Positions 37,026-42,198 of a stretch of 64,000 nucleotides of DNA are shown one piece after another (within the stretch, counting starts at the first letter, position 1; every line of letters starts with the position of its first letter). The stretch lies in contig JALHRP010000006.1 in the NCBI GenBank assembly GCA_022841365.1, positions 1 through 64,000 on the forward strand, read 5' to 3'. A program made the position numbers and the translations under genes. The notes under the pieces were generated by a model. The model was not told the DNA's origin and searched no databases. It saw only the letters and a program-made list of their open reading frames with translations. Origin of the DNA: Chitinophagaceae bacterium. GTDB taxonomy: Bacteria > Bacteroidota > Bacteroidia > Chitinophagales > Chitinophagaceae.

Positions 37026-39971
37026 TTATTGCCTGATTACTTTTTGCAGATGACGGTATTTCTGATCATCACTCGTAATGCTGAGGAAATAAATTCCTTT
37101 GTTCATCCGGCTGATGTCTATCTGTCCGTTCTGATAACCTCCTGAGGTTCTGTACACTTCCTGTCCGTTAGAATTGTATAACTGAACACTGATGCGTTTT
37201 ACACTATATAAATTACCAATACGGTATTGAATATTGCTGTTGCTGATGGTAGGCACTACTTTGCTGATAAAGTTTTTATCATTCAGTACCTGATCATTAA
37301 TATTTGTTGGCTGATTGGGATTGTAGTTAGGTGTACCCAGATATGTGAAATACATACCGTTACCATGTGTACCTACCAGCAATACGTTATCCGATGGTCT
37401 GTATGCCAGCGATTGAACTACTGGTAAGTTTAATGTATTACCACCTTCACGGAACCAGTTTACTGTACCACCACTGATGAGTGTTGGACCAATATTTACT
37501 GCACTAAACAAGCCTACTGAAGTGCCAATATAATATTCTGTAACAGGAACATTGCTTGCATCTCTTTTTACAATAATGGCACAACTTCTTACAGAGGCTG
37601 CATTAATTAAACTACCTTCTGCATTTCGCCAGGTTGGAGTGGCTGATTTTGCATTACTGGTCCACCACACACTCACAACATTTGCACTGTTAATTTCATA
37701 ATTGGAAATAACTGCCATAATCTCATGATCATTATTAGGATTAACAGCTATGTCCTGAATATTTGCGCCCAATGGTAAACCCGGAATACTGATGTTTACA
37801 GGTGTTTGTGTGGTGAGTGCATTCACTGGATTATCTAACCTGAAAATTCTGCCATCGGTTGTACCAATGTACATGGAGTGTGATGTTTGATATGGGCCCC
37901 AGCTAAATGCAAGTGAGCGGATATATAAACCATTACTTGGGTTATTGGTTGCATCAACTGCATTGCCAACACCGGTTAATTCATCCCATGTATTTTGAGT
38001 AACATTTGATGCGTCGTTGGTACGGAACAAGCGGTTAAAGTTTACATAGTACAGATCATCTGTATTGCTCTGGTTCAGTTTAAAGGTTGTTACAAATTCT
38101 CCAAAACCGCCACCATTTGCTGTTAAGCCATTTGGACGAATCAATGTACTGGAATTGATATTCGGTAAAGATGCTCTTCTTATAGTACCTAGTTGTGATG
38201 AACCGTACATAAATTGCTGGTTGCCGCTGTTAACAGCTAAACCAACTGAACCGCCATCACCGGAAAAAGCAGGAAACAGAAAACGATGATTGTTGCTGTC
38301 GTTTGCAGCTGTTCCTAATATACCTACACGGTCTCTCAGCCATGTACCGTTATCCTGCAAGCCACCCACAAAATTATTTCTGCCTGCAGTGGGGTCAATA
38401 CCTACATAATAGTATTGAAATGTTTGATAACCCGGCACCATGCTGTAACTCACGCTAGGTGCAAGTATGTTAGTTGTTAATGAAAGACCACCATCATGTG
38501 CAGAGATCATTTCATTTGGATTATCGGGTCTGAAGGCATTTGCATGCTGATCAGGGTGATGATTTGGATATAAAAACGGATTCAGGTTTTGATTTCCATA
38601 CCCGCCAATCCATGTAACATTTCCCTGTGAAGTAAATCCATCGGTTGAACGAAGGAGATTTACACCGCCCAAAATAACCACATTGGGATCATTAGGTTTA
38701 ACAGTTACTGTAAGATCATATCCACCCTGTGTACTGAAACTTCCAACCTGTCCGCCAAAGTCAGTAATGTTTGCGCTTCTGTTGGTCCATGTATTAGTTG
38801 TTAAATCAACATGCCATAGATCCACATCATTACCCGATGTAGCACCATTTTCATACGCAACATACATAATGTTGTTGTTTGATGGAGCCAATGCAAGTAC
38901 AATCCGTTTTGGAGAGTAAAATATGGGCGTATTGCCGTCAATTACATCGTAAGAGTTGCCTCTCCATCCTGGAATTGAATCACCTGCTCCTTGTGGTCCG
39001 CCTGCTATTCTTGTAAATGATCCGCTGTTACCTGTTGTAGAAGAAAATACTCCTCTGAAAGGAATATCGGGATTGCCGCCATTTTGTGCAGCTATAATTC
39101 GTCCGGTTGAGGTAATCACTACATCCATTGTTCCGCACACTGCGGTTGATGCCTGAGAGCCAATCATTACAACTTCCCAACTGATGCCAAAATTGGTAGA
39201 GCGCATCAGTCTTCTATGACAGCCAACATAGAGGTGACTGTTGGTAGGATTAACAGCGATCTTATGAACAAAATCAAACGGATGATCAAATGCTTCTAAG
39301 CGGAAAGGGCCCGGTGCTCCGGGGAATGCCTGTGGTAAACGTACCCAGGTTGCACCATTGTCGGTTGAGCGATATAACGCTTCGCCCATATAAACAGCTC
39401 CGTTTTCAGCTGCACTGTTACCCCAATGCTCACCACCACCGGCATACCAGCGGTCTAGATTTGCATTTGCTCCTGTGCTGGTGTCTTGTACAATCCAATG
39501 CACATTATGTATTTCACCGGGTCTTGTAACGTTGGTCCAGGTGGTGCCACCGTCTGTTGAACGAAAAATACCACCACTCACTGCACCGGCTACTAATACA
39601 CGGTTACTTGTTCCGTTAAAACGTTTATCATACACAATGGTACGTGTACGCCCACCTGCATTTAAAGCCCCCGCAGCAAAATACGTGTTGGCATCATTTG
39701 GAGACAACACTTTGTCACGTTCCTGTGCCTGCATCGCCTGTTGAAATGATTTTTCAATAATACCATCCGGTATTCTTCCGGTAACAGGGTCTTTCACCAT
39801 GTTGTACATGTATTCATTTCTGCGTTTGTCAAAAGCAGTCTTGTCCATTTCCATCAGCTCTTCACCCACTGCCGGATTATTTTGCAGAGTCCGGTGATTC
39901 ATGACAGCAGAAAACAGGATGATACCTGTTAGTAAAGGGAGTAAAAAGGCAAGAAGTACATTTTGTTTCAT
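37026..39971 (-). CDS. Asp-box (sialidase/sortilin-like) beta-propeller protein with T9SS sorting domain
   Basis: The 981-residue protein has an N-terminal signal sequence (LLAFLLPLLTGIILFSAVMN). It contains a set of Asp-box motifs of the form S-x-D-x-G-x-T-W, for example RSTDGGTTWTNVT, RSTDNGATWVRLP and RSTNFGISWEVV. These mark a propeller of the sialidase/VPS10 type. The last about 75 residues form a type A sorting domain (VKRISVQLYNSNGQEVYRTS, then ISRMNKGIYFLSI). It should be exported across the outer membrane by the type IX system and anchored or released. No catalytic sialidase residues are evident, so glycan binding or adhesion is as likely as hydrolysis. Confidence 0.93.
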   Translation of the reverse strand: MKQNVLLAFLLPLLTGIILFSAVMNHRTLQNNPAVGEELMEMDKTAFDKRRNEYMYNMVKDPVTGRIPDGIIEKSFQQAMQAQERDKVLSPNDANTYFAAGALNAGGRTRTIVYDKRFNGTSNRVLVAGAVSGGIFRSTDGGTTWTNVTRPGEIHNVHWIVQDTSTGANANLDRWYAGGGEHWGNSAAENGAVYMGEALYRSTDNGATWVRLPQAFPGAPGPFRLEAFDHPFDFVHKIAVNPTNSHLYVGCHRRLMRSTNFGISWEVVMIGSQASTAVCGTMDVVITSTGRIIAAQNGGNPDIPFRGVFSSTTGNSGSFTRIAGGPQGAGDSIPGWRGNSYDVIDGNTPIFYSPKRIVLALAPSNNNIMYVAYENGATSGNDVDLWHVDLTTNTWTNRSANITDFGGQVGSFSTQGGYDLTVTVKPNDPNVVILGGVNLLRSTDGFTSQGNVTWIGGYGNQNLNPFLYPNHHPDQHANAFRPDNPNEMISAHDGGLSLTTNILAPSVSYSMVPGYQTFQYYYVGIDPTAGRNNFVGGLQDNGTWLRDRVGILGTAANDSNNHRFLFPAFSGDGGSVGLAVNSGNQQFMYGSSQLGTIRRASLPNINSSTLIRPNGLTANGGGFGEFVTTFKLNQSNTDDLYYVNFNRLFRTNDASNVTQNTWDELTGVGNAVDATNNPSNGLYIRSLAFSWGPYQTSHSMYIGTTDGRIFRLDNPVNALTTQTPVNISIPGLPLGANIQDIAVNPNNDHEIMAVISNYEINSANVVSVWWTSNAKSATPTWRNAEGSLINAASVRSCAIIVKRDASNVPVTEYYIGTSVGLFSAVNIGPTLISGGTVNWFREGGNTLNLPVVQSLAYRPSDNVLLVGTHGNGMYFTYLGTPNYNPNQPTNINDQVLNDKNFISKVVPTISNSNIQYRIGNLYSVKRISVQLYNSNGQEVYRTSGGYQNGQIDISRMNKGIYFLSITSDDQKYRHLQKVIRQ

Positions 39972-40197: not shown

Positions 40198-40254
40198 AAG
40201 AGACGGTTGAGGGTTACAAAAAACCGATTATTTTCATACTGAACTGTTAGAGCT

Positions 40255-40295
40255 TGCTCAACGAAGCTTCAGCGTAGTTGAGCGGTGAGGGCGGG
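40255..40295. repeat. 41-bp direct repeat, distal copy (tRNA-Ser 3' end plus hairpin)
   Basis: This 41-bp block is identical to 40628-40668. Read on the minus strand it holds the last 13 nt of the tRNA gene (CCCGCCCTCACCG) and then a hairpin with arms GCTCAAC and GTTGAGC (40256-40283). It lacks the rest of the tRNA. The two copies are offset by exactly 373 bp. Confidence 0.9.
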
Positions 40296-40320
40296 TCAAC
40301 TACGCCGGGGCTTCGTTGAC
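40295..40320. repeat. Second hairpin of the GIY-YIG unit, mirror of the first
   Basis: GTCAAC and GTTGAC arms enclose TACGCCGGGGCTTC. Its inside matches the first hairpin read on the opposite strand. It begins at the stop codon of the GIY-YIG gene and lies 11 bp from the first hairpin, forming a REPIN-like inverted pair. Confidence 0.75.
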
Positions 40321-40571
40321 TATAGATGCCGATTGAGAAATCTTTTTTTAAGAATAGCTGAACCTGAGCCTGTTTTGAAATACTTTTCTAATCCTCTCAC
40401 TTGTTTTTCTTCTGGTAGAGCAACATACATCACAAGCTCAAAAGGTAAATAATGTTTTGTTGATTGACTCAAACCTTCATTGTGTTCTTTGAATCTTCGT
40501 TTGAGATCATTGGTAGAACCGATGTAGGTAAAATCTTTTTCCAGACTCTTTAGAACATAAACATACCACAT
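40320..40571 (-). CDS. Small GIY-YIG nuclease family protein
   Basis: The 83-residue protein is essentially one GIY-YIG domain. It has YVYVLKS and then YIGSTNDLKRRFKEHN (Tyr, Gly and Arg of the active site), with a catalytic-type Glu in LEKYFKTGSGSAILKKRFL. It belongs to the short UvrC-like group found in many copies in Bacteroidota genomes. It has no DNA-binding extension. It lies between two perfect 41-bp repeats and a hairpin pair, 13 bp downstream of the T-tract of the tRNA-Ser terminator and with no promoter of its own that I can see. This points to a mobile or homing unit. Confidence 0.9.
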   Translation of the reverse strand: MWYVYVLKSLEKDFTYIGSTNDLKRRFKEHNEGLSQSTKHYLPFELVMYVALPEEKQVRGLEKYFKTGSGSAILKKRFLNRHL

Positions 40572-40584
40572 GGTAGTAATCTAC

Positions 40585-40647
40585 AAAAAAAACGCTGAAA
40601 CTTCGGGCAGGTCTTTTGAGAAGAGCCTGCTCAACGAAGCTTCAGCG
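40585..40647 (-). terminator. tRNA-Ser terminator overlapping the repeat
   Basis: On the minus strand CGCTGAAGCTTCG plus GCAGG pairs with CCTGC plus CGAAGTTTCAGCG, followed by T8. Its 5' arm is part of the 41-bp repeat, and pairing there excludes the GCTCAAC/GTTGAGC hairpin. Confidence 0.75.
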
Positions 40648-40668
40648 TAGTTGAGCGGTGAGGGCGGG
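40628..40668. repeat. 41-bp direct repeat, tRNA-proximal copy
   Basis: Identical to 40255-40295. It covers the 3' end of the tRNA-Ser gene (40656-40668) and the hairpin directly after it. Confidence 0.9.
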
Positions 40669-40744
40669 ATTCGAACCCGCGGTACAGAGTTACCCGTACG
40701 GCAGTTTAGCAAACTACTGATTTCAGCCACTCATCCACCTCACC
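40656..40744 (-). tRNA. tRNA-Ser (anticodon GCT)
   Basis: The 89-nt gene starts GGTGAGG and ends CCTCACCG without an encoded CCA. The anticodon stem GTAGT/ACTGC encloses TTGCTAA, giving anticodon GCT. The long variable arm (about 20 nt, ending before CGCGGGTTCGAATCCCGC) is typical of serine tRNAs. It reads AGC and AGU codons. Its last 13 nt are duplicated 373 bp downstream. It has its own promoter and lies behind hisS on the same strand. Confidence 0.95.
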
Positions 40745-40839: not shown

Positions 40840-42198
40840 TTAAAATTTTTGAAGTAATGCATCCATGCTTATTGTTTCCTGCAAACCGGTAACGATATTT
40901 TTTACATTACAGGTACCGGTCTCCAGTTCTTTTGTGCCAATGATAACGATGAACGGAATATGTTTTTTCTCAGCGTATTTAAATTGCTTGTCGAATTTGC
41001 TGTTTTCATGATACAACTCACAAGCAACATTTTTGCTGCGGAGCTGCTGCATCAGTTCAAATGCTTTTTTACTTTCAGCCTCACCAAGATTGAAAAATAA
41101 AACTTTTGTACCTGTGTGTACATCTGCAGGAAACAGGTTTAATTCTTCCATCACATCATAAATGCGATCTACACCAAATGAAATACCAACACCGGGAATA
41201 TTGGGCACACCAAACAAACCGGTGAGATCATCATAACGTCCCCCGCCACCAATGCTGCCCATCTGCACATTGGTTGCTTTTACTTCGAAGATGATTCCGG
41301 TATAATAATTCAGACCACGGGCCAAAGTAAAGTCGAATTGCAGATTTGAGATTTGCGATTGCAGATGAACTGTTTCGAGTTCTTCTATTCCCTTCTTGCC
41401 ATTTTCATTTTCGCCAAGCAGTTGTTTGATGGCTGAAATTTTTTCTTCATTGCTGCCAGTTATGAGTAAATATTTTTCAATGATTATAATTTGATCAGCT
41501 GTTAATCCACGTTGAACTAATTCTTCTTTCACTTTTTCAATTCCAATCTTATCCAGCTTATCAATGGCAACGGTAATATCAACCATCTTTTCGCTGCCGC
41601 CACATATTTCAGCTAATGCTGCAAGTATTTTCCGGCTGTTGATTTTTATATCAACTTCAATACCGAGTTGCTGAAAAACAGTGGCATACATAGTTGCCAG
41701 CTCCACTTCATTCAGCAATGCGTTGCTGCCCACCACATCTGCATCGCATTGATAAAACTCACGGTAGCGGCCTTTTTGCGGTCTGTCGGCTCTCCACACC
41801 GGCTGCACCTGATAGCGTTTGAACGGCATCGTAAGTTGGTTGTGATTCATGGCCACATAACGTGCAAACGGAATGGTGAGATCGTACTTCAATGCACGTT
41901 CGGTAATGGCGCTGCTGTTTTTCCCTGCTACTACTTTTTCAAATTCATCTTTTACCAGTTGATGTTTTGCCGGGTTATCTAAACCGTTGTTCAGTATTTT
42001 AAAAATCAGTTTATCTCCTTCTTCACCATACTTGCCCATTAACGTATCGAGGTTTTCCATGGCAGGTGTTTCCAATGGTTCAAACCCATATAATTCAAAA
42101 ACCGTTTTAATGGTATTGAAAATATAATTGCGTTTGCGAACAACATCTGCTCCAAAATCTCTTGTGCCTTGCGGTAATGATACGTTAACCTTCGCCAT
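40840..42198 (-). CDS. hisS: Histidine--tRNA ligase
   Basis: The 452-residue class II synthetase charges tRNA-His. It has motif 1 (VSLPQGTRDFGADVVRKRNY), motif 2 (KRYQVQPVWRADRPQKGRYR, then EFYQCDADVVGS), the His-binding LARGLNYYTGIIFEV, motif 3 (GGGGRYDDLTGLFG, GVGISFGVDRI) and a C-terminal anticodon domain. An insert before FDFTLARG reads HLQSQISNLQ and is encoded by words of the type CAAATCTCAAATCTGCAA, which look like an intergenic repeat absorbed in frame. Start ATG at 42198. Confidence 0.97.
   Translation of the reverse strand: MAKVNVSLPQGTRDFGADVVRKRNYIFNTIKTVFELYGFEPLETPAMENLDTLMGKYGEEGDKLIFKILNNGLDNPAKHQLVKDEFEKVVAGKNSSAITERALKYDLTIPFARYVAMNHNQLTMPFKRYQVQPVWRADRPQKGRYREFYQCDADVVGSNALLNEVELATMYATVFQQLGIEVDIKINSRKILAALAEICGGSEKMVDITVAIDKLDKIGIEKVKEELVQRGLTADQIIIIEKYLLITGSNEEKISAIKQLLGENENGKKGIEELETVHLQSQISNLQFDFTLARGLNYYTGIIFEVKATNVQMGSIGGGGRYDDLTGLFGVPNIPGVGISFGVDRIYDVMEELNLFPADVHTGTKVLFFNLGEAESKKAFELMQQLRSKNVACELYHENSKFDKQFKYAEKKHIPFIVIIGTKELETGTCNVKNIVTGLQETISMDALLQKF

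Follow-up and report, generated by a model that had tools for sequence, protein, structure and literature searches.

The stretch of DNA analysed here, referred to as the window, covers 64,000 nucleotides (nt) of a Chitinophagaceae bacterium (assembly GCA_022841365.1, contig JALHRP010000006.1, positions 1 to 64,000) and carries, next to its tRNA-Ser(GCT) gene, a short open reading frame (ORF) for a GIY-YIG nuclease that is enclosed between the intact tRNA and a second copy of the tRNA end. Read along the minus strand, the intact tRNA-Ser comes first and is followed by hairpin A, the GIY-YIG gene, hairpin B, the last 14 nt of tRNA-Ser and hairpin A again. The elements of this unit are as follows.

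40655..40744, minus strand: intact tRNA-Ser(GCT), the host gene of the unit (ARAGORN; Rfam RF00005, 54.5 bits)
40622..40668, minus strand: direct repeat, copy 1 (47 bp), the last 14 nt of tRNA-Ser plus hairpin A (repeat comparison)
40629..40656, no strand: hairpin A adjoining the intact tRNA (7-bp perfect outer arms, by eye)
40320..40571, minus strand: GIY-YIG nuclease ORF, single domain, 83 amino acids (aa) (Pfam PF01541, E 4.6e-17)
40296..40319, no strand: hairpin B, the inverse of A, directly 3' of the GIY-YIG stop codon (inverted-repeat comparison)
40282..40295, minus strand: displaced remnant, the second copy of the last 14 nt of tRNA-Ser (repeat and alignment)
40249..40295, minus strand: direct repeat, copy 2 (47 bp), the remnant tail plus the second hairpin A at 40256-40283 (repeat comparison)

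The two perfect 41-bp repeats 373 bp apart, reported in the initial annotation of the locus, were confirmed within a 47-nt repeat (40249-40295 and 40622-40668) that has one mismatch and a spacing of exactly 373, and the single-domain GIY-YIG gene between them was likewise verified by the Pfam match. The repeat does carry the tRNA-Ser end, but with 14 nt by the ARAGORN boundary and not 13; hairpin B does mirror hairpin A (88% complementary, 24-nt arms) and touches the stop codon, but the two are separated by 14 nt and not by an 11-bp spacer. GIY-YIG is the sole gene recognised in the 373-bp unit, with neither an integrase nor a RAYT gene there. At this locus it is the 3' end of the tRNA that is duplicated, hairpins A and B form imperfect inverted repeats, and a strict palindrome scan gave no perfect palindrome at the window's own unit. 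The hairpin core CTACGC..GCTTYG occurs three times in the window, every time at this locus, against 0.03 expected (none of 100 shuffles of the window reached three), and hairpin A is found at 7 places genome-wide at up to 3 mismatches, 3 of these at this locus. After the comparisons described below, we consider it probable, at about 0.68, that the locus belongs to a family of minimal mobile units that parasitise tRNA genes, in which the unit would consist of a bare GIY-YIG gene, a portion of the host tRNA (in most cases its 3' part with the terminator) and usually a short palindrome.

Short GIY-YIG genes beside tRNA genes

In the source genome (G000; 4.56 Mb, 326 contigs, 44 tRNA hits), a total of 8 PF01541 hits were identified, 6 in short frames and two in long ones (604 and 481 aa). 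Of the six short genes, five adjoin a tRNA on the same strand, with tRNA-Ser(GCT), Arg(TCT), Pro(GGG), His(GTG) and Ser(GGA) as partners, and the chance of finding 5 of 6 within 160 bp of a tRNA is about 5e-12; the sixth starts at a contig edge and belongs to the group designated clade N below. A damaged partial copy of the same tRNA was recognised by eye on the far side of all five genes and confirmed by alignment. The His gene (L004) has a stop codon within its frame.

The search was extended to 39 genomes (the source genome plus 38 others), all of which contain PF01541, and the hits in frames shorter than 200 aa, at least 93 in number, were taken as the short set. Of the 93, 50 lie within 160 bp of a tRNA, on the same strand every time. 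When the opposite side of the nuclease was aligned with this tRNA and its flank, 48 of the 50 loci (all but L080 and L127) scored higher than any of 50 shuffles; a minority of loci have the intact tRNA downstream of the nuclease. A tree of 90 short proteins, leaving out L081 (apparently a fragment of UvrC) as well as L127 and L129 (shorter than 66 aa), splits with support of 99/93 into clade N of 29 rows and clade T of 61 rows. A tRNA is adjacent in 48 of the 61 clade T rows and in none of the 29 clade N rows. The other 13 clade T rows include 4 second copies within arrays, at 385-456 bp from the tRNA, and 9 further rows, 7 of which have a tRNA remnant detected by BLAST. Clade N gave 0/29 by this BLAST test; with adjacent tRNAs, array copies and remnants taken together, a tRNA or tRNA fragment is nearby in 59/61 for clade T versus 0/29 for clade N, so that this internal control separates cleanly. 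The expectation that other short GIY-YIG genes are flanked by tRNA fragments thus holds for clade T only, and these units do not share the hairpins of the window, other palindromes being found there. Clade N itself (for instance L065, L075 and L099) is a second widespread family of small GIY-YIG proteins, mostly of about 100-117 aa, with no tRNA link.

For analysis of isoacceptor specificity, a tree was made of 94 T proteins with 26 anticodon labels, in which one in five of the Met loci (see below) was included. The number of changes of tRNA label was 42, against a mean of 69.3 after shuffling, and none of 200 shuffles was as low, the test being limited by few alignment columns and by near-copies. 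Compact labels are Met (21 of 22 in one group), Ser-gga (5/7), Arg-tct (5/7, two of the five rows being identical copies), His (3/3) and Val (3/4). To judge from this tree, subclades tend to keep to one isoacceptor across the phylum.

The catalytic residues of GIY-YIG enzymes are Y, Y, R, H and E. In the alignment of 42 clade T proteins, Y5, Y16, R26 and E62 are invariant and H30 is conserved in at least 90%, and the window protein keeps these catalytic residues. The AlphaFold2 model of the 83-aa protein is a bare single domain (predicted local distance difference test score, 92.6), and besides GIY-YIG, Pfam gave only a marginal T5orf172 match. The nearest solved relatives by profile are UPF0213 (1zg2; 2.1e-18) and Slx1 (7cq2; 4.8e-8), while by fold (Foldseek) Slx1 (E 7.7e-4) and 1zg2 rank ahead of the catalytic domain of I-TevI (E 0.07). 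The ratio of nonsynonymous to synonymous substitution was 0.08-0.18 in 5 of seven pairs, the other two being saturated, and 0.08 for the window gene versus its G012 counterpart; these low values show purifying selection, so the enzyme is maintained in working form even though individual copies are broken. A link with defence systems was considered and dropped, because the PADLOC matches of the 42 proteins are weak (PDC-S14, 20/42, best E 1e-5; UzuA, 13/42, 3.7e-5) and probably reflect the shared GIY-YIG domain only.

The model built on the alignment of these 42 proteins (A1) matches 97 of 148 genomes of the phylum, an upper figure because the model also catches other small GIY-YIG proteins (in G000, 6 matches for 5 T genes). 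From the top of the A1 list, and hence not as a random draw, 40 regions were taken, of which 37 have a tRNA on the GIY-YIG strand within the fetched stretch (L304, L327 and L343 do not) and 34 entered the tree with a tRNA within 160 bp. As a prediction test, a query from the Met subclade was employed; of the 227 confirmed stretches the best 80 were retained, giving 79 loci in named genomes, 3 of which (L195, L234 and L262, matched by place and sequence) repeat loci of the query set. A tRNA-Met(CAT) lies within 300 bp on the same strand in 60 of the 79; the rest have tRNA-Asn (2), an unclear tRNA (1) or none (16, five of which have tRNA-Met at 400-1300 bp). By their 5' ends, inspected by eye, most host tRNAs of this set look like the initiator type. 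Outside Bacteroidota, tRNA-Met neighbours were found in records of Balneolota, Rhodothermia (L225) and Ignavibacteria (L253); the two tRNA-Asn loci (L257 and L266) are from Cloacimonadota, and no tRNA was seen in a Marinimicrobia record (L230) or in L231. Three contigs of Niabella ginsengisoli (L219, L220 and L226) carry the same 3.5-4.2 kb around an initiator-like tRNA and nuclease with about 99% identity; these are segmental copies or an assembly effect and were not accepted as three independent insertions.

Palindromes and tandem arrays

Among 113 remnants with the tRNA upstream, 75 contain a palindrome behind which the same tRNA resumes at once, with at least 10 of 12 positions matching. 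Of the 75, 66 match the tRNA on the left side too; at least three of the 75 palindromes (L109, the second copy of L112 and L341) are the tRNA's own T-arm. The initial annotation had placed the unit at the tRNA 3' end, but the junctions are located at the anticodon arm, the T-loop or the 3' end depending on the subfamily. In Met units the palindrome spans anticodon+3 to anticodon+14, and these values account in the whole set for 40 left ends and 38 right starts, nearly all of Met. In Arg-tct, Val, Gly-tcc and some Pro units, the palindrome spans the whole anticodon stem-loop (-8 to +9 or +10), and in three Asp units and one Gly-gcc unit it stands at the T-loop (+15 to +24), Asp L106 having the anticodon place instead.

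When the palindrome was not required for detection, 37 of 54 Met loci were anchored on both sides, and 35 of the 37 inserts have perfect arms of at least 6, while only 0.4% of shuffled Met inserts have palindromic arms of at least 5. The inner pairs of the Met inserts covary (CC/GG 31, TC/GA 2, CT/AG 1 and TT/AA 1). A looser scan gave a palindrome in 71 of 89 remnant regions, some of them being terminators or tRNA hairpins, versus 10 of 82 controls and 8 of 89 stretches inside the ORF. The hairpins had been thought to belong to one dispersed REP-like family; this was not supported, since palindromes differ by subfamily and hairpin A has only its 7 places in the genome. Neither are the palindromes restricted to tRNA genes, an idea that was rejected after a genome-wide excess was seen. 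The pattern TCCCG..CGGGA is present 83 times in G000 versus 14 for the reversed pattern, and over G000, G012, G003 and G013 it is 3 to 7 times commoner genome-wide than the reversed control.

Units are also arranged head-to-tail, with 8 nuclease copies in L304 (G090, spacing of about 365 bp), 3 each in L306, L307 and L308, and 2 in L112, and the unit spacing in such arrays is about 320-370 bp. In L112 the intact tRNA-Arg is followed by two GIY-YIG copies, each with a tRNA-like copy behind; these palindrome-bearing copies, with the palindrome in the anticodon arm, are still called tRNA-Arg by ARAGORN. The eight-unit array of L304 starts at the 3' half of an initiator/fMet-like tRNA, from the anticodon loop, without the 5' half. 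At G000:C3:79229-79552 (L016), an intact tRNA(CAT) is followed by three partial copies of equal score at intervals of about 130 bp, in which the TCCCG..CGGGA palindrome takes the place of the anticodon stem, and no nuclease gene was seen between the copies; L016 is a remnant array without its enzyme. Downstream of tRNA-Pro(GGG) in L003, four tandem copies of the tRNA-Pro tail and terminator are packed within 420 nt, and palindromes stand where tRNA arms would be.

Occupied and unoccupied tRNA genes

Two genes next to the unit in the window were used for comparison of orthologous loci.

40840..42198, minus strand: upstream neighbour (ORF), which we take to be hisS for histidyl-tRNA synthetase, the anchor for orthologous empty sites
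37026..39971, minus strand: downstream neighbour, a 981-aa ORF

Empty sites had been proposed as a check of mobility. Of 9 genomes with tRNA-Ser(GCT) next to hisS, two (G000 and G012, with hisS 94% identical) carry the unit with its palindromes and seven are empty, so that the arrangement is not fixed among relatives, and the hairpin A core is absent from all seven empty sites. Outside these 9, hisS was found without tRNA-Ser in the stretch in G005, G006, G009 and G008 (two copies), and it was not found in G004. On the far side of the tRNA, a homologue of the 981-aa neighbour is present in G012 (89% identity) and at three of the seven empty sites (32-37%); the stretch of L144, without one, ends too soon to tell. 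Eight further tRNA genes include both occupied and unoccupied species, and in the 15 pairs compared gene order is kept on both sides in 8 (His 2, Pro 1, Met 1, Arg-ccg 1, Ser-gga 1 and Arg-tct 2) and on one side in 5 (Pro 1, Val 1 and Asp 3). In the remaining 2, both Val (L022 and L164), the flanking genes are on swapped sides, and these were not counted as orthologous empty sites. The unoccupied Pro of G012 and Met of G000 are not clean; the nuclease is gone and remnant copies are kept, as if the nuclease had been lost. As a separate observation on tRNA-Ser loci L132-L137, the 5' flank is conserved across species and the terminator right behind the tRNA differs in all six, as if the tails had been replaced often.

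In the mobile ORFs (mORFs) of fungal mitochondria, known from Allomyces atp6 and Glomus atp6, atp9, cox2 and nad3, an endonuclease ORF of about 420-1020 bp (Table 2 therein) is inserted between a regenerated gene end and the displaced native one; the mORF at atp9 is a GIY-YIG enzyme, and the inserted end can be foreign (PMC3630166). The direction of insertion can be read in the same manner at tRNA-His of G000. The flank of its remnant corresponds to the empty site in G012, the sister species (z 14; 51 over 160 nt), whereas the flank of the intact tRNA best matches the empty site of G013 (z 10, versus 5.8 for G012) and does not match the flank of its own remnant (z 2.4). Furthermore, the three occupied tRNA-His genes (L004, L066 and L072) share acceptor changes that are missing from both empty ones (L177 and L189), and they do not encode the CCA present in the empty-site tRNA-His. 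From these flank matches, tRNA-His of G000 carries what appears to be the mORF signature, a foreign end inserted and the native end displaced. Recoding of occupied tRNAs for escape from cutting was not supported, since outside His they are mostly identical to the empty ones or differ without pattern.

Proposed mode of insertion and its alternatives

The best reading of the unit, in our view, is a minimal homing-type element that would target tRNA genes and bring a tRNA end to mend the gene entered. The position of the nuclease between an intact tRNA and a damaged copy, occupied and empty alleles, isoacceptor subclades, the palindrome at a fixed tRNA position in several subfamilies, purifying selection and tandem arrays are all observed. 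In the proposed mechanism, the nuclease would cut the empty tRNA gene at the place particular to the subfamily (anticodon arm, T-loop or 3' end), double-strand-break repair would copy the unit in, and the tRNA piece carried along would rebuild a working tRNA. The native tail, pushed downstream, would become the remnant, left non-functional by the palindrome; in the loci themselves it is the remnant that is broken by the palindrome, while the adjoining tRNA is intact. Further cuts with unequal repair would lead to tandem arrays, and recombination between the repeats could remove the unit and give an empty site. Because the nuclease is a bare domain without an evident DNA-binding partner and the junctions are at tRNA hairpins, recognition of structure is possible. 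A more far-reaching version, which we hold as tentative and rather doubtful, is that the units, at about 320-370 bp, represent a novel class of mobile element in bacteria and may be the smallest that is autonomous. In this version a bare GIY-YIG nuclease resembling Slx1 would find tRNA genes via DNA structure (hairpins or cruciforms at the anticodon, T-loop and 3' end), the palindrome would be a structural end mark acted on by the enzyme, and the tRNA piece would serve as gene mender and homology arm.

The known system closest in tRNA linkage is SegB of phages T4 and T6, a free-standing GIY-YIG homing endonuclease adjoining tRNA genes (PMC13096335, PMC2988022) that cuts within tRNA genes and drives tandem amplification of tRNA together with its own gene, no favoured tRNA isotype being reported for it there (PMC13096335). 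As with Seg-type homing endonucleases, a GIY-YIG gene adjoins a tRNA, its presumed target, and relatives have empty alleles. Unlike the phage-borne SegB, the units described here are chromosomal and isoacceptor-linked, with a bare domain of about 83 aa, a remnant and a palindrome. In Seg-type homing endonucleases a separate DNA-binding domain gives sequence specificity, and no such domain is predicted in the 83-aa model. The mORF arrangement, with the nuclease ORF between an intact gene and its displaced end, is shared by 48 of the 50 loci above and by 54 of 59 Met loci, a few of which are common to both sets; the differences are bacterial tRNA genes in place of mitochondrial protein genes, shorter ORFs, and a palindrome at a fixed place, for which the covered part of the mORF account has no counterpart (PMC3630166). 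UPF0213 and Slx1 are closest to the window protein by profile and among the best by fold, and the covered part of PMC1564403 mentions no tRNA-nested arrangement for Slx1 or together with the term "tRNA". Among the titles and opening lines of abstracts listed by our search of the open-access literature (subscription papers and preprints being outside its scope), none describes chromosomal tRNA-nested GIY-YIG units.

Several results weigh against a homing-type element. Cleavage and movement are what we infer from the sequences. The foreign-tail signature is clear at His alone among seven loci. At Arg-tct L101, Val L107 and both Ser-gct loci including that of the window, the two flanks resemble each other (z 7-20), the remnant flank of Asp L106 matches one empty site weakly (z 4.6 over 160 nt), and the comparison for Arg-tct L002 is uninformative; duplication or later conversion may account for these six loci. 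The rebuilt tRNA keeps the presumed target, leaving self-immunity unexplained, and the arrays may be the price of a rebuilt tRNA that remains cuttable. The bare catalytic domain has no extra domain to account for sequence specificity, 38 of the 113 remnants lack a palindrome by the test above, and clade T loci L059 and L117 have neither tRNA nor remnant by BLAST. Pro-tgg, Leu-caa, Pro-cgg and Glu-ttc do not cluster, one Leu-caa row being sister to one Glu-ttc row, and so targets may switch; moreover, vertical descent with many losses also predicts isoacceptor clustering. With one query each, no close relatives were detected in viral contigs (40 pattern matches to the A2 query, no relative among them), plasmids (no match to the window protein) or phages (18 weak matches to L051 below 42% identity, in Rhizobium, Listeria and Vibrio phages), and a transfer vehicle is therefore missing.

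REPIN/RAYT systems are composed of short palindrome pairs of one family, dispersed at high copy, and a RAYT transposase gene. In a REPIN-like alternative, which we regard as unlikely, GIY-YIG would act as RAYT and mobilise short palindromes with tRNA genes as favoured landing sites. Palindromes tied to a single small enzyme gene are common to both systems; they flank the window gene and occur in most remnants, the TCCCG..CGGGA excess in G000 is genome-wide, and TCCGCC..GGCGGA is in excess by at least 8 over the reversed pattern in 19 of 97 genomes with an A1 match and 0 of 51 without (Fisher p 2e-4, the threshold having been chosen after the counts were known and phylogeny being uncorrected). 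However, no RAYT is present, the palindromes sit in tRNA remnants at a position fixed within one tRNA subfamily and vary between subfamilies, hairpin A is rare in the genome, and arrays themselves add palindromes to the counts. The RAYT analogy of the initial annotation is accordingly only partly apt, and weaker than that with homing endonucleases and mORFs. Its idea of a minimal mobile-looking unit stands as regards GIY-YIG as sole gene, the tRNA-end duplication and the empty sites, but not as regards a 3'-end-only position and one hairpin family, and there may be some truth in its comparison with an integrase. Integration of islands yields a complete tRNA and a partial one (PMC9897764), in common with the tRNA-derived direct repeats at both ends of the unit, and integrase sub-locations resemble the anticodon-loop, T-loop and 3'-end positions found here (PMC2647930). 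That a tyrosine integrase acts in trans on these repeats as attachment (att) sites, with GIY-YIG as passenger, is nevertheless most improbable: unlike such islands, with an integrase and kilobases of DNA, the window unit of about 370 bp contains no integrase, the array spacings leave no room for an integrase gene, and the gene tracking isoacceptor identity is GIY-YIG itself.

A SegB-like nuclease could instead have been domesticated as an amplifier, kept not as a selfish gene but for duplicating or varying tRNA genes (dosage, or escape from tRNA-cutting enzymes). Tandem arrays such as L304 and L112 are in line with this, as is the amplification driven by SegB in phage T6 (PMC13096335), but most of the duplicated copies are broken, their anticodon arm or T-loop being disrupted, and are hence unfit for dosage, both L112 copies carry the palindrome in the anticodon arm, and occupancy is patchy; we think this somewhat less likely still than the REPIN-like scheme. 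It is also hard to favour, and about as improbable as an integrase in trans, that old tandem tRNA duplications shelter an ordinary repair nuclease that is vertically inherited, often lost and immobile. Isoacceptor clades fit vertical descent, both flanks are alike at several loci, and UPF0213 and Slx1 are the nearest solved structures, but recurrence at 26 anticodon labels, the mixed His signature and the absence of palindromes from empty Ser-gct sites would all have to be accounted for.

If the homing-type element is the correct reading, many Bacteroidota (up to 97 of the 148 sampled genomes) carry minimal selfish units in essential tRNA genes with the host surviving. Such units would account for runs of broken tRNA copies and for the small palindromes next to tRNA genes, give a function to many small orphan GIY-YIG genes, describe one route by which tRNA genes are duplicated, moved and broken, and offer single-domain nucleases with directly testable isoacceptor specificity. 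Three literatures, on phage SegB, mitochondrial mORFs and tRNA integration sites, would then be joined by these units.

As an observation on tRNA clusters in general, L154 (G013) with 13 tRNA genes and L156 (G003) with 11 are dense arrays of 1.0-1.35 kb, of a kind not included in the tRNA lists of G000 and G012, and each is perhaps a mobile tRNA island.
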